Below, piece by piece: positions 13,293 to 23,872 of a stretch of 64,000 bases of DNA. Numbering within the stretch: position 1 is the stretch's first letter; each line of letters opens with the position of its first letter. This stretch comes from Sorangium aterium (GTDB lineage Bacteria > Myxococcota_A > Polyangia > Polyangiales > Polyangiaceae). A model generated the notes under the pieces. That model was not told the origin of the DNA and did not search any database. It saw nothing but the letters and a program-made list of their open reading frames with translations. The stretch lies in the NCBI RefSeq assembly GCF_028368935.1, contig NZ_JAQNDK010000002.1:1302001-1366000 (forward strand). The letters run 5' to 3'. The translations under genes and the position numbers were made by a program.

Positions 13293-15155
13293 TCATGTCT
13301 CGACGGCCTTGTTCGCGCCGGCGTCATCGTCCCCTCCATACATCGACTCCGCGATCCGGAACGCCGCCCCCTCGAGGCGCGCGTACGCGTCCCGGAGCGC
13401 GTCGAGGTCGCCGCCGCCTTCGAGCAGCTTCCGCAGCGCCGCGCACTCGGCGTGGACCTCGCCGAGGAGCTCGGCGTCGAGCAGATCGCCGTAGCCTTCG
13501 AGGGCCTGCTCGGTCGTGTAGACGAGGGTCTCTGCCTGGTTGCGGAGCTCGGCGAGATCGCGCCGGAGCGCGTCGGTCTCCTTGAACCGCTCGCCCTCCG
13601 AGACGAGCCGATCGACCTCGTCCGGCGTGAGGCCGCTCGTGGGGGTCACCCGGATCTCCTGCACCCGCCCCGTCCCGAGATCCCGCGCCTCGACGCGGAC
13701 GATCCCGTTCTCGTCGATGCGGAAGGTGACCTGGATCTTGGGCAGCCCGCGCGGCGCCGGAGGGATGCCGGTGAGCTCGAAGCGGGCGAGGCTCCGGCAG
13801 TCCGCGGCCATCTCGCGCTCGCCCTGGAGCACGTGCACGGGGACGAAGCTCTGGTTGTCGACGCTCGTCGTGAAGATCTCGCTCCGCTCGGTGGGGATGG
13901 TCGTGTTCCGCGGGATGAGCTTGAAGCTCACGCCGCCGCCGGTCTCGACGCCGAGCGACAGCGGCGTCACGTCGAGGAGCAGCACCTCGTCCACCTGTCC
14001 GGAGAGCGCGGCGCCCTGCAGCGCGGCCCCGACCGCGACGACCTCGTCGGGGTTCACGCCCTTGTTCGGCTCCCGGCCGAAGAACTCGCGCACCGCCGCC
14101 TGCACCGCGGGCATCCGGGTCATGCCGCCGACGAGGACCACCGTGTTGACGGCGGAGACGGGGAGCTTGGCGTCCCCGAGCGTCGCGCGGCAGACGTCGA
14201 TGGTCCGCCGGATGAGGCCCTCGCAGAGCATCTCGAGCTCGTTGCGCCGCATCGTCCGCTCGAGGTGGAGCGGCCCGCCGCCCGGGCCGACGGCGATGAA
14301 GGGGATGTTGATCTCGGTCTCGAGCGACGACGAGAGCTCGTGCTTCGCCTTCTCGGCCGCCTCCTTGAGCCGCTGCAGCGCCATGCGGTCCCGGCGCAGA
14401 TCGATGCGGCTCTTCCCCTCGAACTCGTCGGCGAGCAGGTCGATGATCCGCTGGTCGAAGTCCTCGCCGCCGAGGTGCGTGTCGCCGCCGGTCGCCTTGA
14501 CGCTGAAGACCCCGCTCGCGATCTCGAGGATCGAGATATCGAACGTGCCTCCGCCGAGATCGTAGACCGCGATCGTCTCGGCCTTCACCTTGTCGAGGCC
14601 GTAGGCGAGCGCCGCGGCGGTCGGCTCGTTGATGATCCGGCGCACGTCCAGCCCGGCGATCCGCCCTGCGTCCTTCGTCGCCTGCCGCTGGGCGTCGTCG
14701 AAGTAGGCGGGGACGGTGACCACCGCCTCCGTCACGGGCTCGCCGAGGAACCGCTCGGCGACCTGCTTCATCTGGCCGAGGATCACCGCCGAGATCTCGG
14801 GGGGCGAGTAGTTGCGCCCCTTGACCTCGACCCACGCGTCGCTGTTCGGCGCCTCGACGATCTTGTAGGGCGCGAGGCTGATCTGCTTGCTGACCTCGGG
14901 CGCGGTGAACTTGCGGCCCATCAGCCGCTTCACCGCATAGATGGTGTTCTGCGGGTTCGTGACCGCCTGGCGGCGCGCGACCTGCCCGACCAGGCGCTCG
15001 CCGCTCGCGGGGAAGCCGACCACGGAAGGCGTGGTGCGCGCGCCCTCGGCGTTCGGGATCACCCGAACATCGCTCGCCGAGGCGACGCCTGCCCCTTCGA
15101 CGACAGCCACGCACGAGTTCGTCGTCCCGAGATCGATGCCGATCACCTTCCCCAT
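13293..15155 (-). CDS. dnaK: Hsp70 chaperone DnaK
   Basis: A 620-residue Hsp70. The ATPase domain starts [17 protein letters not shown] and has [34 protein letters not shown] and [13 protein letters not shown]. The substrate-binding domain starts after [11 protein letters not shown]. The C-terminal lid is shorter than E. coli DnaK, lacks the Gly-rich tail and ends in AVET rather than EEVD-like or GGK-type sequence. The ATG at 15155 is the only sensible start. It lies 187 bp downstream of grpE and 120 bp upstream of the kinase gene; dnaJ is not adjacent. Lineages of this type often have several DnaK paralogues, so whether this is the housekeeping copy is open; linkage to grpE supports that. 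Confidence 0.95.
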
Positions 15156-15342
15156 ATGCGGCGAAAGATACTACAGGCCTGGATGCTCGCCGGGTGGGGA
15201 GACGACCTGGGCGCCCGCGATATTTGGGGAGATCGTGCGGTGAGGTAGCGGGGCACGGCAGATCCCGGACAGGATCACCGCCAGGATGCGCACCGTGCCG
15301 GAGGTGTGCGCCGAGGGAGCCGGCGCGACGCCGCGCGGAGGC

Positions 15343-15927
15343 TCAGTTCGCTGCGGGCGCCGGCTCGACGGGCGAGCCCTTCGAGACGACGACCATGGCC
15401 GCGCGGATCAGGTAATCGCCCAGCATGTATCCCGGCTGGACCTCCGCGATCACGACGCCGGCGGGGTGCTCGGTCGAGTCGAGCTGCTGGATGGCCTCGT
15501 GCACGCTGGGATCGAAGGGCTTGCCGACCGCGGCGATGCGCTTGATGCCCATGCGCTCCAGCGTGTCGACGAACTGCTTCGTCACGATCCGGACGCCCTC
15601 GGCGACCGACTTCACGTCCGGCGCGCTCTCGGCGTGGCTGGCCGCGCGCTCGAGGTTGTCGAAGACCGGGAGCAGATCCTTCAGGATCGCCTCGCGGCCG
15701 CGGCGCTGCGCCTCTTCGACCTCGCGCCGGGAGCGCTTACGGAAGTTGTCGAAATCCGCGGCGGTGCGCAGCAGCTGCTCGCGCATCCGCGCGGCCTCCG
15801 CCTGCACCTCGCCTAGCTTGTCTTCGGGGGCGGGGGCCTGCTGCTCCGCAGGCTCTGCGCGCTCAGCCTGCGCCTCCGCCGTCTCCCCCGTGTTCTGGTT
15901 CGACCCATTTTGTTCCGAATCGCTCAT
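15343..15927 (-). CDS. grpE: Nucleotide exchange factor GrpE
   Basis: A 194-residue GrpE, the nucleotide exchange factor for DnaK. The N-terminal 40 residues are low-complexity and charged. A coiled coil follows containing the family block [20 protein letters not shown], and the C-terminal beta domain carries [14 protein letters not shown] and [20 protein letters not shown]. It is the first gene of the grpE-dnaK-kinase set. A good sigma-70-like promoter lies only about 12 nt before the ATG, and no Shine-Dalgarno sequence precedes the ATG, so the transcript may be leaderless or nearly so. Confidence 0.95.
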
Positions 15928-15938
15928 AGGACGGCGGC

Positions 15939-15966
15939 ACTATAACCAGCCGCGATCCGCTGGCAA
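15939..15966 (-). promoter_or_regulatory. Predicted sigma-70-type promoter of grpE
   Basis: On the minus strand TTGCCA (15966-15961) and TATAGT (15944-15939) are separated by 16 bp. Transcription would start near 15932, only about 5 nt before the grpE ATG. I found no CIRCE element (TTAGCACTC-N9-GAGTGCTAA) around it. Confidence 0.5.
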
Positions 15967-16066
15967 TCGCCACGCCCATGGTCGGCAGGAGGCGAGCGCC
16001 GGCGCCCGAGCGCGCCGGCGCGTGCCGCCGCCCCGGCCCAGGACGCCCGCGTGGGTCGGCGCCCGG

Positions 16067-16110
16067 GCGCTCCGGACGCGCTCCAGAGGCGCTCCGGAGG
16101 CGCTCCGGAC
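16067..16110. repeat. Four imperfect 10-bp direct repeats
   Basis: GCGCTCCGGA occurs at 16067, 16090 and 16101, and GCGCTCCAGA at 16078, giving a spacing of 11-12 bp. They lie in the divergent gap between grpE and the aminotransferase gene. A roughly helical-turn spacing could suit a protein binding array; it could also be simple slippage. Confidence 0.6.
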
Positions 16111-16198
16111 GCATGGTTTGCCCGGGTCTCCACGATCCGCTGCGGGCGCCGCATCGACCGTTTGCTCCGAGGCCCCGCCCGGCGTTAGATCGCCATCC

Positions 16199-17461
16199 AT
16201 GAGCATCGCCACAAGCCGCGCCGCCGAACCCCCTCCGGCGAACGCCTCGACGCCCGCCAGCGCGCCGCTCCTCGCGGCGCAGAAGCACCTCCTCGGCAAC
16301 TACCGCCAGCCGCCGTTCGTCCTCGACCGCGGCAGGGGTTGCGAGCTCTTCGACACGGAGGGGCGCCGGTACCTGGACATGTGCGCCGGGGTGGCTGTGG
16401 CTTCGCTCGGGCACGCTCACCCGCGGCTCGTGGCGACCATCTCGGAGCAGGCGGGCCGCCTGATGCACGTCTCCAACTATTTCTTCAACGCGGAGAACCT
16501 CCGCCTCGCCGAGGAGCTCTGCGAGAAGACCGGCTTCGATCGCGCCTTCTTCTGCAACTCGGGCGCGGAGGCGAACGAGGCGATGCTCAAGCTCGCGCGC
16601 CGCCATTTCTTCAACCGGGGCGAGGAGGGGCGCTACCGGATCATCGCGTTCGACAACGCGTTTCACGGCCGCACCCTCGGCGCGGTCGCCCTGACCGGGA
16701 CGCCGAAGTACCGCGAGGGCTTCGGCCCCTCGCTCGACGGCGTCACGCACGTGCCTTACGGGGATGTGGCCGCGGTGCGCGCCGCCATGGGCCCGGACGT
16801 CGCGGGGATCCTCGTGGAGCCGGTGCAAGGGGAGGGCGGCGTGCTGCCGGCCCCGGCGGGGTTCCTCGCCGAGCTGCGGCGCATCGCCGACGAGCACGGC
16901 GCGCTGCTGCTCGTCGACGAGGTGCAGACCGGCATCGGGCGCACGGGGCACTGGCTCGGCGCGGCGTACGACGGCGTCCAGAGCGACGCCGCGGCGCTCG
17001 CGAAGGGGCTCGGCGGCGGGTTCCCGGTCGGCGCGCTGGTGCTGCGGGAGCGGCTCAACGGCGCGCTGCCCCCGGGCTCGCACGGCTCGACCTATGGCGG
17101 CAACGCGCTCGCCTCCGCCACGGCGCGCACGGTGCTCGCGGTCATCGAGGAAGAGAAGCTGTGCGAGGCCGCCCTGAAGCGCGGCGAGCGGCTCGGCCGC
17201 GGCCTCGCCGCGATCGCCGCGCGGCTGCCGGGCGTGTGCCTCGGCGAGCGCGGGCGCGGGTTGCTCCGCGGGCTCATCCTCGCGCCGACCGTCGACGCGC
17301 GCGCCGCCCTCGGCCGCGTGCGCGATCGCGGCGTGCTGCTCACGATCGCGGGCAACAGCGTGCTCCGGTTCACGCCGCCCCTGATCGTGAGCGAGGCGCA
17401 GATCGACGAGGCGCTGGCCGAGGTCGAGGCCGCGCTCGCCGAGACGCCGGCTGCGGGTTGA
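16199..17461 (+). CDS. argD: Acetylornithine-type aminotransferase (class III, PLP)
   Basis: A 420-residue fold-type I aminotransferase. Visible motifs are CNSGAEANEAMLKLARRHF (phosphate-binding region), AFHGRTLGAVALTGTPKY, PVQGEGGVLPA, DEVQTGIGRTG (PLP-pyridine Asp), the Schiff-base lysine block AALAKGLGGGFPVGA, and GSHGSTYGGNALA. These match ArgD, which makes N-acetylornithine in arginine synthesis; related ornithine or succinylornithine aminotransferases cannot be excluded. The ATG at 16199 precedes about 25 variable residues. The P-type ATPase gene begins 1 nt after the stop, so the two are probably co-transcribed, a pairing with no obvious metabolic logic. Confidence 0.87.
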   Translation: MSIATSRAAEPPPANASTPASAPLLAAQKHLLGNYRQPPFVLDRGRGCELFDTEGRRYLDMCAGVAVASLGHAHPRLVATISEQAGRLMHVSNYFFNAENLRLAEELCEKTGFDRAFFCNSGAEANEAMLKLARRHFFNRGEEGRYRIIAFDNAFHGRTLGAVALTGTPKYREGFGPSLDGVTHVPYGDVAAVRAAMGPDVAGILVEPVQGEGGVLPAPAGFLAELRRIADEHGALLLVDEVQTGIGRTGHWLGAAYDGVQSDAAALAKGLGGGFPVGALVLRERLNGALPPGSHGSTYGGNALASATARTVLAVIEEEKLCEAALKRGERLGRGLAAIAARLPGVCLGERGRGLLRGLILAPTVDARAALGRVRDRGVLLTIAGNSVLRFTPPLIVSEAQIDEALAEVEAALAETPAAG

Positions 17462-17462
17462 G

Positions 17463-19901
17463 GTGGTCGCCTCGCGCGCCGCGGGTCCCGCCGCCGCCCC
17501 CGTCCCGTGCTCGGGCTGCAGCAAGCTGATCGATCCGCTGCGCGCGGGGCAGGTGGCGATCTTCGATCAGCGCTTCCATTACTTCTGCAACGCGCGGTGC
17601 CGCCACGCCTTCCTCGGTGAAGCGGCGCCTGCGCCGGGCGACGGCCGGCCTGCTGGCCTCGCGGCGTCGGGCGCGCCCTTCGCCGGCGCTCCTCCCCGGG
17701 GGCTCCCGTCGGGCGCGCCGCCCGGCGCCGGCGGGCACCACGCCTCCGCGGCGCGCGCCGAGCCCGCGCGGGCGAGCGCCGACGAGGGCGCGGCGCGCGT
17801 CGCGGACCTCGACGCGCCGATCGTCGACGCGTTCCCGCCCGTGTCGCTCGACGAGAAGCTCCCGGACCTGCCCGTCCTCGACGACGATCGCGCGCTGCTC
17901 GAGCCCATCGGGAACACCATCCTGAGCGAGGAGCCGCAGCGCTACGATGCGGTCGAGGCGCGGGACATCGGCGCGCTCCTGCTCGTGCTCGCGATCATCG
18001 CTGGGACGCTGGCCGTCGCGCTCACCCTCGCCGGGGACGCGAAGCTCGTCATCGGCGCGCGCATCGTGCTCGCCACGGTGAGCGCCGGGATGCTCCTCGG
18101 CCGCGCCGCCACGACCGCGCGCGACGCCACCGATCCGCACCCGGCGCCGATGCTCGCGCCCGTCCTGGGTGGGCTCGTGGCCGCCGTCTGGGCCCTCTTC
18201 GGTCAGGACCGCGCCCTCGCGGCCGAGGCCGCGTCGCTCGCCGGCGTGATCGCCACCGCCAGCGCGATCAGCGCGTGGCTCATCGAGAGCGCCCGACATC
18301 GCGTGTTCGCGGAGCGGGCGTGGATCGGATCCGTGCTCTCGACGCCGGCGCGCCGGCCGCCTGGCGCGTGGGCGCAGGGTCAGGCGCCTGCCGACCGCGC
18401 CTCGCAGCGCGGCAGCGACGGCGGCTCTCTCGAGGGCGCCGGGGATGAGCTCTACGAGCTGCGACCGGGCGAGGGCGTCCAGGTCGACGCGGGGGAGGTC
18501 GTCCCCGTCGACCTCGTCGTCACGGGCGGCGATGTCGAGGTCCTCCCCTGGATCGGCGCGACCACGCCGACCCGCCGCCGCGACGGCGACCCGGTCGTCG
18601 CCGGGGCCACCGTGGTCCGGGGTCGCCTCGTCGGCGCGTGCACCTTCTCCGGCGGCGATCGCGCGGTCGCGCGCGTCCTGCTCGACGCCCGCCGGCGCGC
18701 GGACGCCCTCGCGCCCATCGCGCAGGCCTCCCGCGCCCTGACCGAGCGCTGGGCGATCGGCGCCGCGGCGATCGGCGCGCTCTCCGCCTTCGTCGCCGGG
18801 CGCGCTCCGGTCGAGATCGCGATGACCGCGGCCGCCGTGCTCGCCGCGCTGTCCACGGCGATCACGGCATCCATCGCGTCGGTGCACGTCGCGCGGGGCA
18901 TCTTGCTCGGGCTCCGCCGGGGCATCGTCTACAAGAGCGCCGACGCCTGGGATCGCGCAGGGAAGACCTCGGTCGCCGTGTTCTGCGCCCGCGGCACGCT
19001 GCTGCTCGGCGAGCCCGAGCTCGCGGAGCTGGAGGCGACCGGGCAGAAGCTCAAGCCGAGCGACGTGCTGGCGCTCGCGGCCGGGGCGGAGCGCACCGAG
19101 GAGCACCCCGTCGCGACGGCGATCGTCCGCGCCGCGCGCGCCCGCGGCTTGCGGCCCGACGGCGTGCGCAACCCCAACTTCCACCCCGGCCTCGGCGTGA
19201 CGGCCGTCACCTCGTCCGGCGAGGACCTCTGCGTCGGCAACCGCGCGCTCATGCTCGAGCAGCGGATCTCGATCGCCGCGGCCGAGAGCCGCGTCGCCGA
19301 GCTCGAGGCGCTCGGGCGCACGGTGGTCCTCGTCGCGGTCGGCGCTCGCCTCGTCGGCATCATCGGCCTGCAGGACGGGCTGCGCCCCGGGGCGCGGGCC
19401 GCCATCCAGCACCTGCTCGACGCGCAGATCGAGCCCGTGCTGATGTCGGGCGACGCGCGCGAGACGTGCGAGGCGATCGGCCGCTCGCTCGACATCGATC
19501 ACATCCGCCCCGAGATCCTCCCCGCGGATCGCGGCGCGGAGGTGCGTCGCCTGATCGACGCGGGCACGAGCGTCGCCGTCCTCGGCCACGCGGGCGTCGA
19601 CGACGCCGCGCTCGGCGCCGCCGACGTCTCCGTGGCGCTCGGCGCCGCCGGCTCGGCGCCCGCCGACTTCTCCACGGTCCTCGCGTCGGACGACGTCCGC
19701 GACGCCGCGCTCTCCCTCGCGCTCGCGCACCGCACGCGCCTCGAGGCGCGCGTCGGGCTCGCGCTCAGCGTCGCCCCGGCGCTCGTCGGCGCCGCGGTCA
19801 TCGCCGCGTTCGTGCTCCCGCCGGCCTACGCGCCCATCGCCTCGCTGCTCGGCGGCGTCATGGCGGTCGTCCACGCCCGCGCGCTCGACGCGAAGAGCTG
19901 A
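17463..19901 (+). CDS. Degenerate P1B-type ATPase homologue with TRASH-like metal finger
   Basis: An 812-residue membrane protein with the layout of a heavy-metal P-type ATPase but without its catalytic residues. The N-terminus has C16-x2-C19 and C42-x3-C46 (around FHYFCNARC), a TRASH/YHS-like metal-binding finger, then an Ala/Pro-rich linker. Membrane helices follow from about residue 175, but no CPC motif is seen. The phosphorylation motif DKTGT is replaced by CARGT (Cys508, codon 18984-18986). The TGE loop and the GDGxND hinge (here GHAGVDD) are also altered. The nucleotide-binding HP motif (TEEHPVATAIV) and a GDARET segment remain. The frame is intact over 2.4 kb, so this is a maintained gene, perhaps a metal sensor or regulator rather than a pump. 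GTG 17463 starts 1 nt after argD. Confidence 0.85.
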   Translation: MVASRAAGPAAAPVPCSGCSKLIDPLRAGQVAIFDQRFHYFCNARCRHAFLGEAAPAPGDGRPAGLAASGAPFAGAPPRGLPSGAPPGAGGHHASAARAEPARASADEGAARVADLDAPIVDAFPPVSLDEKLPDLPVLDDDRALLEPIGNTILSEEPQRYDAVEARDIGALLLVLAIIAGTLAVALTLAGDAKLVIGARIVLATVSAGMLLGRAATTARDATDPHPAPMLAPVLGGLVAAVWALFGQDRALAAEAASLAGVIATASAISAWLIESARHRVFAERAWIGSVLSTPARRPPGAWAQGQAPADRASQRGSDGGSLEGAGDELYELRPGEGVQVDAGEVVPVDLVVTGGDVEVLPWIGATTPTRRRDGDPVVAGATVVRGRLVGACTFSGGDRAVARVLLDARRRADALAPIAQASRALTERWAIGAAAIGALSAFVAGRAPVEIAMTAAAVLAALSTAITASIASVHVARGILLGLRRGIVYKSADAWDRAGKTSVAVFCARGTLLLGEPELAELEATGQKLKPSDVLALAAGAERTEEHPVATAIVRAARARGLRPDGVRNPNFHPGLGVTAVTSSGEDLCVGNRALMLEQRISIAAAESRVAELEALGRTVVLVAVGARLVGIIGLQDGLRPGARAAIQHLLDAQIEPVLMSGDARETCEAIGRSLDIDHIRPEILPADRGAEVRRLIDAGTSVAVLGHAGVDDAALGAADVSVALGAAGSAPADFSTVLASDDVRDAALSLALAHRTRLEARVGLALSVAPALVGAAVIAAFVLPPAYAPIASLLGGVMAVVHARALDAKS

Positions 19902-19950
19902 GCGCCGGGCGCGGTCGCCGGCGCGGGGCTCCTCGCCGCGCCGCGGCGGG

Positions 19951-20463
19951 CTACGAGACGTCGGGCGTGGTGTCCTTGCCGTCGCGGCAGTCCGCGCAGA
20001 CGCCGTACATCTCGTGCTTGTGCCAGGTCACCTCGAAGCCGTACTTCGCGGCGATCTCTTCCTGGAGCGCCTCGATCCGCGGCTCCTCGAACTCGATGAT
20101 CTTCCCGCAGTTGACGCAGATCAGGTGGTCGTGGTGCGCGCTGGCGTCGTCCGCCAGCTCGTAGCGGCTAAGGCCATCCCCGAACCGGCGCTCGGAGGCC
20201 ACGCCGCACTCCGCGAGCAGCTTGAGCGTGCGGTACACCGTCGCGTACCCGATGCCTCGGTCGTGCGCGCGCACCTCCGCGAGCAGGTCCTCGATGGTCA
20301 TGTGCGGGGCGCCGGAGAAGAACGTGTCGACGATCAGCCGGCGCTGCGCCGTCGATCTCAGCCCCTTCTTGGCCATGTACGCCTGGAGGCGAGCGCGTAG
20401 CCGGTCGAGGGCAACTTGGTCGACGTGGCTGGCGCTGCTCCCCTCTCTCTCCATGACGGCCAT
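19951..20463 (-). CDS. fur: Fur-family metal-responsive regulator
   Basis: A 170-residue Fur-type repressor. The N-terminal winged helix includes RSTAQRRLIVDTFF and IGYATVYRTLKLLAECG. The C-terminal dimer/metal domain has the HHDHLICVNCGKIIEFEE block and a second Cys pair (CADC). Both structural-zinc Cys pairs are present, as in iron-sensing Fur; Zur or PerR roles cannot be excluded from sequence alone. It converges with the P-type ATPase homologue, 49 bp away. The extended N-terminus (about 28 residues before the first helix) may be shorter if ATG at 20454 is used. Confidence 0.9.
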   Translation of the reverse strand: MAVMEREGSSASHVDQVALDRLRARLQAYMAKKGLRSTAQRRLIVDTFFSGAPHMTIEDLLAEVRAHDRGIGYATVYRTLKLLAECGVASERRFGDGLSRYELADDASAHHDHLICVNCGKIIEFEEPRIEALQEEIAAKYGFEVTWHKHEMYGVCADCRDGKDTTPDVS

Positions 20464-20562
20464 GGCAAGTTTATCCCGTTCGCGGCGAACCGCGTCAAGG
20501 CCGGCGACCGAGCCCCCGTGGCGTGATCTCGCCGACGCTGTCCGTGCCCCCGCGCGCCGGCG

Positions 20563-21636
20563 CTACTCGCCGACCTGCGCCATGTAGCTGACCTGAGCGG
20601 CCGGCCCCCCGAGGGGGCTGAGCAGCGTGATGGGAGGCGCGACCAGGCCGGCCGCCGCCGTGTTGTCGACGACGACGTAGTAGAGGCCCGGGCGCAGCGC
20701 GTAGCGGCGCGTCTCGATGATCCCGGGCTGGAGAGGGCCGCCTGCCTGCACCGGGCCTGGCGGGGGGCCGAGCGGCTTGCCGGTCTGGTACGCCTCGCGC
20801 CACGCGTCGCCGGTGGGCTTGTCGACGATCATGAGGTCCACGGGCGCGCCCTGCGCGCTGACCTTGAGGTAGAGCGCCTGGTCCGAGTCGGCGATCTCGA
20901 ACGGCCCGAGGTAGTCGCGCTGGTGCGCGTGCACCTCGATGGTCTCGTTCGCGAAGGTGTACCGCTCCTCGTCCTCGGCCTCGAACGGGTGGTGCGGTCG
21001 CTGGGGCGGCGTGAGGATCCCCAGCGTGAAATCCTTCCCGGTCTCCTCGTTGTAGAGGACGGTGAACCCGCGGGTCAGCTCGCCCGCGACGATCTGGTTG
21101 CCGAGCAGGTTGGCGAGCCCTCCGAACGGCGGGACGTTGGCCATCACGTCGATGACGGGGTTCTCGACGTAGCCCAGCTGGAAGCTCGGGCCTTGCACGA
21201 TCCGGTTCAGCCGTCCCCACACGTAGACGTTGTCGTCCGCGAGCTGGAAGTCGGGTCGGTACTCGACGGACGTCGTGAGCGAGAAGCCCACCCGCTTGGC
21301 CGGCTGCATGTAGCCGTACCCCGTGCCGGCGATGTGGACGGTGATCGTCTGGGCCGCGTCGTTGACGTCGTACGAGCACTGCATCGGGAAGAACCGCCCG
21401 ATGGACGCCGATCTGTCCTGCAGGCGCAGCGAGACCCCGCTCTTCAGCATCTCGGGGCAGATCTTGCTGGCCCCGAAGTTCGAGAACAGGAACCAGCGGA
21501 GGCCAGGGCTCGCGTTCACGGGGCCGCTGACGCAGGGGCAGCCGACGAACGTGAACGACAGCGCGACAGCGGCGAGCGCCAGCGCGGCGGACGCGCGGGA
21601 GAGCGGGGGTCTTCGTGCGGGCACGCGGGCTAACAT
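20563..21636 (-). CDS. Putative lipoprotein, unknown function
   Basis: 357 residues starting with an Arg-rich tract and a hydrophobic signal segment ending FTFVGC, an imperfect lipobox, so the mature protein may be lipid-anchored at Cys33. The rest is beta-rich with many Tyr and Gly residues and no recognisable domain. It mentions no catalytic motif I can identify. The ATG at 21636 is chosen because the signal sequence follows directly. It reads in the same direction as the M15-like gene 65 nt upstream, and both encode exported proteins. I cannot assign a function. Confidence 0.7.
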   Translation of the reverse strand: MLARVPARRPPLSRASAALALAAVALSFTFVGCPCVSGPVNASPGLRWFLFSNFGASKICPEMLKSGVSLRLQDRSASIGRFFPMQCSYDVNDAAQTITVHIAGTGYGYMQPAKRVGFSLTTSVEYRPDFQLADDNVYVWGRLNRIVQGPSFQLGYVENPVIDVMANVPPFGGLANLLGNQIVAGELTRGFTVLYNEETGKDFTLGILTPPQRPHHPFEAEDEERYTFANETIEVHAHQRDYLGPFEIADSDQALYLKVSAQGAPVDLMIVDKPTGDAWREAYQTGKPLGPPPGPVQAGGPLQPGIIETRRYALRPGLYYVVVDNTAAAGLVAPPITLLSPLGGPAAQVSYMAQVGE

Positions 21637-21701
21637 AGCGGGTCGACCTCGGAGGGAGAGCGGGTTTGCGCGCGGGAGGACGGACGACGTCCCGTCCCGG
21701 A

Positions 21702-22496
21702 TCAGCGCACGAGATGCCATTGGACGCCGGGGGTCACCTCGAGATGCAGGTGATTTTTGTGCGCCCGATCGTAGTTGGGCGTGAGGATCGACGTGAAGAT
21801 GTGCTGATCCACGGCCTCGCACACGATGGATCGCAGCTCTCGCGCCGCCGCGTCCGCTGGAGGGCCGCTGCCCGCCCCCTTGCCGGCCCCGCGGGGCCTC
21901 CCCGCCGGGCCTGCGCTCTCGCCGCAGACCGGCGCGCCGCGCCTGCCGACGAAGTCGCGCTCCACGTCGAGCCAATCCTCCGCGAACCCGCCGCCGACGG
22001 GCTCCTTGATGAGCCTGTAGAGGTCGATCGCGAGCCCGCCCGGGTGCCGCGTGGCGAGCCTGCCCTCGGGCCACATCCTGGACGGAGGCCGCCAGGCCGA
22101 GAACATCAGCGCCTCGTCGATGTCGTGCGCGCGGAGGATCCGGCTGAAGTCCGAGAGCGCGAGCGCGAGGCGGCAGTCGAAGACGTCGTACGGGTTGTCC
22201 GCGCGTTGATGCGCCGGCAGCGCCGTCCGGTAGAGGACCCCGCCGACCCCCTGCATCAGCCGCACCGGAGCGAGCACGCCCGGCGCGCGCGGCACCGGCT
22301 CGAACGCGATCTTCCGCTGCGTGAGCGCCGCGCGGCACTGCGCCGCGCTCATGGCCGCGTAGCGCGCCGACGGGTGCTTCGCCCAGTCCTGGTGGTACCT
22401 GACCTTCGGCTTGCCCTGCGCGCTCGGCGCGGCGGCGAGGGGGCCGAGCGCGAGGGCGAGCGCGCAGGCAGCGGCGGCATGGCGTGCGGGCGGCAT
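21702..22496 (-). CDS. Extensin-like / M15-type peptidase fold protein, exported
   Basis: 264 residues with a signal peptide (MPPARHAAAACALALALGPL, then AAAPSAQG). The body resembles the extensin-like C-terminal family, which shares the D-Ala-D-Ala carboxypeptidase (M15) fold. Visible are CRAALTQRKIAFEPV, the FDCRLALALSDF block, the putative zinc-ligand motif RHPGGLAIDL (HxxxxxxD) and HKNHLHLEV near the C-terminus. A cell-wall role is likely. A Gly/Pro/Ala-rich insertion of about 20 residues sits between the two ligand blocks. The ATG at 22496 is preferred over upstream in-frame starts because the signal peptide starts there. Confidence 0.75.
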   Translation of the reverse strand: MPPARHAAAACALALALGPLAAAPSAQGKPKVRYHQDWAKHPSARYAAMSAAQCRAALTQRKIAFEPVPRAPGVLAPVRLMQGVGGVLYRTALPAHQRADNPYDVFDCRLALALSDFSRILRAHDIDEALMFSAWRPPSRMWPEGRLATRHPGGLAIDLYRLIKEPVGGGFAEDWLDVERDFVGRRGAPVCGESAGPAGRPRGAGKGAGSGPPADAAARELRSIVCEAVDQHIFTSILTPNYDRAHKNHLHLEVTPGVQWHLVR

Positions 22497-22828
22497 CGTT
22501 GCGGTACATCCCTCGTGCGAAGCAAGGCAGGCAGGCCCTCTCGGGGCCTCTCGGGGGGCCGAGCGACCACGTGCCACGTGGCCGATCGCGCCGCCATCCC
22601 ACGGAGCGGGGCCCCGTGCGCGGGGTGGCTACTCGCCGATCCTACCGCGACATTTGACCGGGCCGCGCGATCGCCTCAAAATGGGTCGCATGCGCGTCCG
22701 TGGGTCGAGCGCCCGCACGCGCAGCTTGACGTACGGGAGCGAAGGTCCGGCCCGCATGGCTTCCCGGTCCGGGCGGTCCCTGGTCCAGGTAGCCACGGCG
22801 GCGCGCTTGTGCGCTGCATGCAGCTGAC
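22497..22828. other. 332-bp divergent intergenic region before hrcA
   Basis: Holds the promoters for hrcA (rightward) and the M15-like gene (leftward). I see no CIRCE inverted repeat, no convincing -35/-10 pair and no RNA gene. Confidence 0.5.
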
Positions 22829-23872
22829 ATGAGTGATCTTTCCAATCGATCTCGGAAGATCCTTTTCGCCGCGGTCACCGAGTTCATCGCAACGGGCGAC
22901 CCAGTTGGCAGCAGGACGCTCGCCCGGAAGTACGGGCTGGATCTCTCGGCTGCTTCGATCCGCAACGTGCTCGCCGACCTCGAGGAGGCCGGGTACCTCC
23001 ACCAGCCGCACACCTCTGCCGGGCGGATCCCGACCGATCGCGCGCTCCGGCTGTTCATCGACGCGCTCGTCGAGCTCCGGTCGCTGTCTCCCGAGCAGCA
23101 GGCCGAGCTGAGCGCCAGGTTCACCGAGATCTACGCGGGGGCGAGCGATCCGCTCCGCGAGACCGGGCGCTACCTCTCGGAGCTGTCCGGCGCCGCGGCG
23201 GTCGTGGCGGCGCCGCGGGCGGAGCTCCGCGCCCTCGCCCAGCTGCGCTTCATCCCGACCAAGCCCGGGCAGCTGCTCGCGGTGCTCGTCTTCGCCGACG
23301 GCTCGGTCGCGAACCGCTTCATCTCGGCCGACGAGGCGATCAACGAGGGCGAGCTCACCCGGATCCACAACCTGCTCGCCGACGTCATCGAGGGGCGCAC
23401 GCTGGGCGAGATCCGGGACCTGTTCGCCCGCCGCCTCGCGGACGAGCGCCTCCAGATCGACGCGCTGAGGCGCCGCGCCTTCGAGCTCGGCAGCAAGGCG
23501 ACGGCCGACGTGACCCGGCGGAGCGAGGTCGTCATCGAGGGGCAGAACCGCCTGATCGATCTGCCCGAGTACGCCGATGTCGATCGGCTCAAGAAGCTGA
23601 TGAAGGCGCTCGAGGAGCGCGAGGAGCTCGTCGATCTGCTCGACCGGACGCTCGCCGCCGGCGCGGGTGAGGTCACCGTGTTCGTCGGCAGCGAGGCGGG
23701 CGATCTTGGCGGAGGCCAGCTCAGCCTCGTCGCCGCGCCGTACATGGAAAACGGCCGCGTCGCCGGGACCGTCGGCGTGCTCGGCCCGACGCGGATGGAC
23801 TACGCGAAGGTCATGCCGCTGGTCGACGCCACGGCCGCGGCGATGACCGAGGTCCGCGGCAAGGTCAAGTAG
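22829..23872 (+). CDS. hrcA: Heat-inducible transcription repressor HrcA
   Basis: A 347-residue HrcA. The N-terminal winged helix has the family block TGDPVGSRTLARKYGLDLS and SIRNVLADLEEAGYLHQPH, then TSAGRIPTDRALRLFID. The GAF-like middle and the C-terminal GRVAGTVGVLGPTRMDYAKV block are intact. HrcA represses chaperone genes by binding CIRCE with GroEL as co-repressor. Here it is 7 kb from grpE-dnaK, in the opposite orientation, and no CIRCE site is visible near either. The 3' end overlaps the convergent pseudouridine synthase gene by 8 nt. Confidence 0.95.
   Translation: MSDLSNRSRKILFAAVTEFIATGDPVGSRTLARKYGLDLSAASIRNVLADLEEAGYLHQPHTSAGRIPTDRALRLFIDALVELRSLSPEQQAELSARFTEIYAGASDPLRETGRYLSELSGAAAVVAAPRAELRALAQLRFIPTKPGQLLAVLVFADGSVANRFISADEAINEGELTRIHNLLADVIEGRTLGEIRDLFARRLADERLQIDALRRRAFELGSKATADVTRRSEVVIEGQNRLIDLPEYADVDRLKKLMKALEEREELVDLLDRTLAAGAGEVTVFVGSEAGDLGGGQLSLVAAPYMENGRVAGTVGVLGPTRMDYAKVMPLVDATAAAMTEVRGKVK

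Follow-up and report, generated by a model that had tools for sequence, protein, structure and literature searches.

P-type ATPases are defined by a phosphorylated aspartate (Asp), and a member without this residue raises the question of what function could be left to it. Such a gene occupies positions 17463–19901 of a stretch of 64,000 nucleotides from Sorangium aterium (assembly GCF_028368935.1, contig NZ_JAQNDK010000002.1, positions 1,302,001–1,366,000), the whole of which is called the window here and provides the numbering. Its predicted product looks like a metal-transporting P1B-ATPase headed by a four-cysteine finger. We found that it belongs to a family in the order Polyangiales from which the catalytic Asp has been lost, and which frequently lies beside an arginine-biosynthesis gene. 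Proteins of this family almost certainly do not pump by phosphorylation. As an overall explanation, a pump-derived, membrane-anchored pseudoenzyme that would serve as a metal-responsive regulator or scaffold and be expressed with arginine genes has, in our judgment, about an even chance of being correct.

Loss of the catalytic motifs

The initial annotation described a full-length P1B layout at this locus, and the frame, start and stop it gave were all recovered (Table 1). The product has eight predicted membrane helices and A, P and N domains. Both Pfam domains exceeded their cut-offs (E1-E2_ATPase, PF00122, residues 330–466, 41.1 bits against 28.1; Hydrolase/HAD, PF00702, 52.8 bits against 26.4), and the heavy-metal P-type ATPase model TIGR01525 aligned to residues 331–805 with 213.2 bits, under its curated cut-off of 346.25. 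The altered motifs reported in that annotation are likewise present in the sequence: CARGT in place of DKTGT, changed TGE and GDGxND motifs, no CPC, and a C-x2-C/C-x3-C finger. The position of the phosphorylated Asp is taken by Cys508, the TGE loop reads I364-G365-A366 (18552–18560), and GDGxND has become GHAGVDD (residues 708–714, 19584–19604), in which the last Asp of the motif alone is kept in place. Where M4 would carry a CPC-type metal motif the protein reads ALSTAI, and no C-P-C was found anywhere in the family alignment, whose region 461–471 is variable. The window protein retains HP (548–549) and GxG (576–578) of the N domain, as well as SGD at residues 662–664.

A full-length structure was predicted from the alignment of 12 orthologues that underlies profile A1 (see below). 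In it the finger forms a hairpin and a helix, and eight membrane helices are present, of which one is broken; the mean predicted local distance difference test (pLDDT) value was only 57.5. Because this model was poor in the P/N domain, that domain was folded separately, giving a mean pLDDT of 75.9 with values below 50 for the last ~35 residues. A fold search of the Protein Data Bank (PDB) with the separate model returned CopA and other P1B headpieces as best matches at moderate TM-scores (~0.5–0.6); in the model, the P/N domain still folds like CopA.

Distribution and origin of the family

A scan of species genomes revealed 14 related loci, including those of Sorangium, Minicystis, Byssovorax and Polyangiaceae, with best-segment identities of 44 to 95%. 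Profile A1 was then run against 377 genomes of the phylum at E ≤ 1e-50 and matched 71 of them, 60 within the order and 11 outside; the order itself was represented by 71 genomes (35 of the family labelled f1 and 36 of other families). Ten of the 11 matches outside the order (all but G184) were read, and all ten were canonical pumps, in which DKTGT, TGE, CPC and GDGxND are intact and the finger is missing. A finger-only profile detected the finger in all 60 genomes within the order, although in three of them (G196, G295 and G337) it lay on a different contig from the body, which was cut by a contig end. Six more genomes of the order (G022, G289, G328, G345, G361 and G376) were recovered with the same profile; in two of them (G289 and G328) the sequence ends with its contig before the catalytic site. 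In total, a finger-bearing relative is present in 66 of the 71 sampled genomes. No member was found with either profile in G027, G041, G080, G144 and G226, where the finger-like match of G226 was a canonical YHS-like pump; these absences are not proved, since only two candidates per genome were scored in the A1 searches and 19 in the finger search. In family f14, which lies outside the order but within the same class, the finger profile also identified a more degenerate form of ~682 residues in two genomes (L178:5050–7095, 682 aa; L179:4690–6732, 681 aa). Both have an intact finger and no DKTG, and in L178 PF00702 falls slightly under its cut-off and PF00122 is unmatched.

Orthologues that all kept the Asp had been named beforehand as the observation that would speak against a pseudoenzyme. 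The Asp occurs in none of the 32 aligned members and in all 24 canonical relatives, and six further aligned members lack it as well. The orthologues also share the losses of TGE, CPC and GDGxND, and the pseudoenzyme suggested by the initial annotation is real and conserved. In a 28-row alignment (A2), which excludes closely similar members and those truncated at contig ends, the former Asp position is occupied by Cys (18), Ser (5), Ala (3), Asn (1) or Gln (1), and Leu, Val or Pro appears there in other members. Thus, residues at this site are freely mixed, which disfavours a replacement nucleophile. The TGE site is similarly varied, only G708 and D713 of the GDGxND motif are invariant, and PF00122 and PF00702 could be matched in all 28 members at E ≤ 0.1.

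In a tree of 56 sequences the family formed one clade (100/100) among CopA-type rows, apart from rows that we take, by their motifs, to be CcoI-like and KdpB-like. When the motif columns were left out, a quick tree still recovered the clade, with a Shimodaira–Hasegawa-like approximate likelihood ratio (SH-aLRT) of 99; L110 and L119 form long branches, and class-level members were left out. As far as sequences can tell, the family is a P1B-ATPase by descent and would stand outside the pump family by function.

Selective constraint

The ratio of non-synonymous to synonymous substitution rates (dN/dS) against three Sorangium orthologues was 0.23–0.24 overall in pairwise comparisons, and the linker (residues 51–160) provided a relaxed internal contrast (0.39–0.98). 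The values to L014 (0.38) and L016 (0.54), possibly inflated by saturation and GC bias, were not used, and a value of 1.5 for the former catalytic loop (L011 and L012), which comes from 25 codons with very few changes, was not interpreted. It had initially been argued that a frame open over 2.4 kb points to selection. This argument is weak, and we rejected the open frame as evidence: the opposite strand is likewise open for 834 aa (17370–19874, minus strand), as expected of GC-rich codon use, so an open frame proves nothing for selection here. The orthologues and their dN/dS are better evidence.

Across families, mean pairwise identity was 0.46 for the finger, 0.45 for the headpiece and 0.27 for the transmembrane (TM) helices, and the linker reached 0.19 over the 49 of its 115 columns that were scored, with no invariant column. 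Invariant columns numbered 5 of 37 in the finger, 18 of 334 in the headpiece and 0 of 207 in the TM helices. In 30 canonical P1B-ATPases, mean identity was 0.52 for the TM helices and 0.48 for the headpiece, and 26 of 148 and 60 of 352 columns, respectively, were conserved at ≥95%; it should be noted that TM limits came from the predicted model in one of the two sets and from hydropathy in the other. Unlike those of canonical P1B-ATPases, the membrane helices of this family have lost constraint between families, whereas the finger and headpiece have kept it. In our reading, transport across the membrane was given up and a cytosolic function was kept.

The N-terminal finger

The finger consists of C-x2-C followed by C-x3-C (Cys codons starting at 17508, 17517, 17586 and 17598). 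Its four cysteines and R27 are invariant in all 28 members, two of which (L016 and L084) have one extra residue in the second Cys pair. The finger probably binds metal. The initial label of a TRASH-like finger holds for the four cysteines, which are as in TRASH, but less so for the profile matches: at E ≤ 0.1, DUF7576 was matched in 12 of the 28 members, TRASH_HVO_1752_C in two (best E 0.0088) and zf-FCS in two (14.4 bits in the window protein against a cut-off of 22.4), and the best match of the finger profile among PDB sequences, eL24, was insignificant (E 0.077). The finger resembles TRASH/YHS domains and eL24 in its C-x2-C and C-x3-C pairs, with four cysteines as in eL24, and differs from TRASH/YHS in a DPLRA signature of its own and in its weak or sub-cut-off Pfam scores. 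According to one report, the four cysteines of eL24 bind Cd2+, and an adenylyl cyclase carries a YHS domain, a relative of TRASH, that probably senses copper (PMC4626032). Canonical pumps with an N-terminal YHS domain occur in the order (L139, PF04945, 48.9 bits), and because such pumps exist in these bacteria, a CopA that began with a YHS or TRASH domain would be a likely parent.

Elsewhere in the class, in other families, a finger of this kind stands at the head of another protein (L184:4079–5527, L187:2749–3975 and L195:4901–7093), in which HEAT repeats are confirmed by Pfam (L184 and L187) or apparent (L195). The finger is a module common to unrelated proteins.

Association with arginine-biosynthesis genes

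Neighbouring genes were analyzed by targeted comparison, unsupervised clustering having been dropped as noisy (overlapping frames, GC-rich DNA). An arginine-biosynthesis gene adjoins the pseudo-ATPase gene in 49 of the 64 genomes that could be tested on at least one side (G196 and G337 were dropped because of contig ends). This link is absent from the initial annotation and was unexpected. The neighbour is argD or argF upstream in f1 and argH in five other families. In f1, argD or argF lies directly upstream on the same strand in 27 of the 29 genomes with enough flanking sequence (the exceptions being G276 and G357). Gene content beyond argD varies in this family (grpE-dnaK, a gene that we labelled HAD-like, and others), while the pair of argD and pseudo-ATPase is constant. 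Directly downstream on the same strand, argH was found in all members of f2 (14/14), f7 (2/2) and f8 (1/1), followed by lysA in 14 of these 17; in G017, G258 and G374 the contig stops before that point. In f5, argH is adjacent and divergent in two of four. Among the genomes added by the finger profile, G289 (f1) has argD-argF upstream and both G361 (f2) and G022 (f3) have argH-lysA downstream; no arginine neighbour was seen in G345, G376 and G328, the last viewed upstream only. One representative of each enzyme name was checked: argD, argF, argH, lysA, mutT, frr, dnaK, grpE and hrcA pass the NCBIfam cut-off, and Fur that of Pfam. The arrangements reflect either one ancestral arginine cluster or two separate events. 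Gene order makes a functional link to arginine synthesis possible, and we propose it only tentatively.

A gene that we labelled SH3lp532 (putative lipoprotein) lies directly upstream on the same strand in several f2 and f8 genomes and near the gene in f5 (L093, L100, L105, L107 and L109).

Possible function and alternative explanations

The family would have a single origin in a CopA-type metal pump, predating the diversification of the order and perhaps of part of the class. It almost certainly no longer pumps: the catalytic Asp, TGE, CPC and most of GDGxND are lost family-wide, and membrane-helix constraint is lost between families. The four-cysteine finger and the cytosolic A/P/N headpiece have stayed under constraint. 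The finger probably binds a transition metal, most likely zinc or copper; the membrane helices may be reduced to an anchor; and the headpiece, with a partial nucleotide pocket in many members, could serve as a scaffold or regulator that responds to metal and perhaps to nucleotide. To judge from gene order, the protein may be co-expressed with argD, argF or argH and would probably act on, or report to, the arginine pathway. We lean slightly towards a membrane-anchored regulator or scaffold, and the transporter-derived metal sensor suggested by the initial annotation appears plausible. A more specific version makes the protein a metal-responsive anchored regulator or assembly platform for arginine biosynthesis: metal would be read by the finger, ArgD, ArgF or ArgH would be held or controlled by the inactive headpiece, and the membrane part would do no more than anchor it. 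We consider this version unlikely.

Several observations weigh against this explanation. Within the flanks seen, no arginine neighbour was found in f4 (0/6, with mutT or frr downstream in its place), f6 (0/2, each genome seen on one side only) or two of the four f5 genomes; thus, arginine genes do not accompany every member, and their adjacency could be an inherited arrangement without functional meaning. Pfam matches of the finger are weak, and none of the TRASH, YHS or FCS cut-offs was reached in the window protein. Only 17 of the 28 members retain the His of the N-domain HP motif (Pro, G576 and G578 in 27 each), so CopA-like nucleotide binding cannot be family-wide. The contrast between TM helices and headpiece is weaker in f2, f5, f7 and f8 (0.44 vs 0.55), and dN/dS of TM1-4 among the Sorangium orthologues is low (0.06–0.10). 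The membrane part is still constrained over short spans, which an anchor would allow, yet it also speaks for a transporter. Three draft copies are interrupted: L009 is split into two frames, L046 has one TGA, and the draft G378 of the same genus has one TGA in what is probably the gene (G378:C367:3165–4601), either as assembly errors or through rare decay. Moreover, metal binding, membrane location, nucleotide binding, partner interaction and the arginine role are all inferred from sequence.

The same pseudoenzyme might carry a structural or protein-binding zinc finger that senses nothing, with arginine neighbours as inherited gene order. One report treats the FCS-like zinc finger of plants as a module for protein-protein interaction (PMC4047054), the similar finger on HEAT-repeat proteins in other families of the class would agree with a structural finger, and the lack of arginine neighbours in f4 and f6 with inherited order. 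However, arginine adjacency exists in two arrangements with three enzymes while the outer genes change, and we consider this explanation rather doubtful. The protein could instead be a transporter still, as a phosphorylation-free channel or facilitative carrier for metal, arginine, ornithine or polyamine. All eight membrane helices remain in the model, TM1-4 are constrained among Sorangium orthologues and amino-acid biosynthesis genes adjoin; but the membrane part is less conserved across families than the finger and headpiece, without an invariant column in 28 members, the CPC region is variable and the helices of canonical P1B-ATPases are, in contrast, strongly conserved, which makes continued transport improbable.

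Another role, raised in general terms by the initial annotation, is that of a regulatory partner subunit of an active P1B-ATPase in the same cell. Canonical P1B-ATPases were present in 62 of 71 genomes of the order at E ≤ 1e-85, counted in a different draw of 71 genomes from the sample used for profile A1. However, the nine genomes without one include five known carriers of the gene (G111, G120, G343, G172 and G182). Other P-type matches besides the gene occur in G111, G343, G172 and G182 at E ≤ 1e-8, but in G120, a 98% complete draft, the gene is the sole match. Because G120 carries the gene without another P-type ATPase match, an obligate pump partner is unlikely; the suggestion did not hold as a general role, and we regard a partner subunit as very improbable. 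Catalysis could be imagined to run through Cys508 or through some other phospho-acceptor of the HAD fold, given that Cys occupies the site most often (18/28), yet Ser, Ala, Asn, Gln, Leu, Val or Pro stand there in other members and motifs III and IV are eroded, leaving an active enzyme a remote prospect. Finally, a decaying gene or a sequencing artefact would fit the three interrupted drafts and the five genomes of the order in which no member was found, but is hardly credible for a single clade with relatives in 66 of 71 genomes and the low dN/dS given above.

Comparison with known systems

CopA-type P1B-ATPases (TIGR01525/TIGR01511) are closest to the family both in the tree and in the PDB fold search, and share its eight TM helices and A/P/N fold; the family differs from them in the lost phosphorylated Asp, TGE, CPC and most of GDGxND, in its sub-cut-off TIGR01525 score and in the loss of TM constraint across families. 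An N-terminal motif before the P1B core, CxxC...CCxGC, is also known from loci that we presume to be CcoI/FixI and was present in four of six of them. The CcoI-like rows scored only 60–72 bits against the family profile, keep DKTGT and lie elsewhere in the tree (separate 100/100 clades), and a CcoI origin was rejected on the basis of these scores and positions.

The closest eroded relative that we found in print is ERMA (TMEM94), in which, according to the accessible part of the report, a P-type fold has eroded TGES and GDGVND as here (PMC13322241). In contrast with the family, ERMA has ten TM helices and keeps an Asp (DKQGI) that is needed, D427N abolishing Mg2+ uptake, and no such finger is mentioned in that part (PMC13322241). 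A review of P-type ATPases from 2023 names DKTGT as their signature and anticipates further families in prokaryotes (PMC10654040). No P-type pseudoenzyme family was found among the matches listed in the open-licence literature. An Asp-less clade with a kept headpiece and an invariant four-cysteine finger would be a pseudoenzyme branch of the P-type superfamily. In it, nature would have uncoupled the headpiece from pumping, and because the gene recurs next to argD, argF or argH, a link from metal to arginine is testable.

Gene features and local neighbourhood

The coordinates of the gene, its segments and its neighbours are given in Table 1. Only a single base separates the argD stop from the GTG of the pseudo-ATPase gene.

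Table 1. Pseudo-ATPase gene, predicted segments of its product and neighbouring genes (positions in the window)
Feature	Residues	Positions	Strand	Basis
dnaK		13293..15155	-	NCBIfam cut-off passed; context
grpE		15343..15927	-	NCBIfam cut-off passed; divergent from argD
argD, acetylornithine aminotransferase		16199..17461	+	TIGR00707, 433.7 bits (cut-off 410.05); TGA stop 17459-17461
Pseudo-P1B-ATPase gene	812 aa	17463..19901	+	GTG start at 17463, stop ends 19901; orthologues, dN/dS
N-terminal TRASH-type finger (C16, C19, C42, C46)	14-50	17502..17612	+	Invariant Cys; weak TRASH/FCS/DUF7576 Pfam matches
Poorly conserved linker	51-165	17613..17957	+	Low identity, high dN/dS
TM helices 1-4 (positions of MA, MB, M1, M2)	169-285	17967..18317	+	Helices in predicted model
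A domain	330-415	18450..18707	+	PF00122; alignment column counts
TM helices 5-6 (positions of M3, M4), no CPC	418-485	18714..18917	+	Alignment, predicted model
Former phosphorylation site, CARGT for DKTGT	508-512	18984..18998	+	Alignment
N domain	529-625	19047..19337	+	Alignment, P/N model, fold search
P domain, second half	626-745	19338..19697	+	Segment of highest identity (0.50), nine invariant columns
TM helices 7-8 (positions of M5, M6)	752-811	19716..19895	+	Helices in predicted model
Fur-family regulator		19951..20463	-	PF01475, 121.1 bits; convergent with pseudo-ATPase

In 13 other f1 genomes and in L111, a Fur gene lies directly downstream of the pseudo-ATPase gene on the same strand. 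A promoter/terminator scan returned no terminator-like site and a single promoter-like site (minus strand, 15966–15939), which was not used as evidence. Positions 13293–23872 of the window make up one region with dnaK, grpE and hrcA together with argD, the pseudo-ATPase gene and fur, and this region is conserved in Sorangium.

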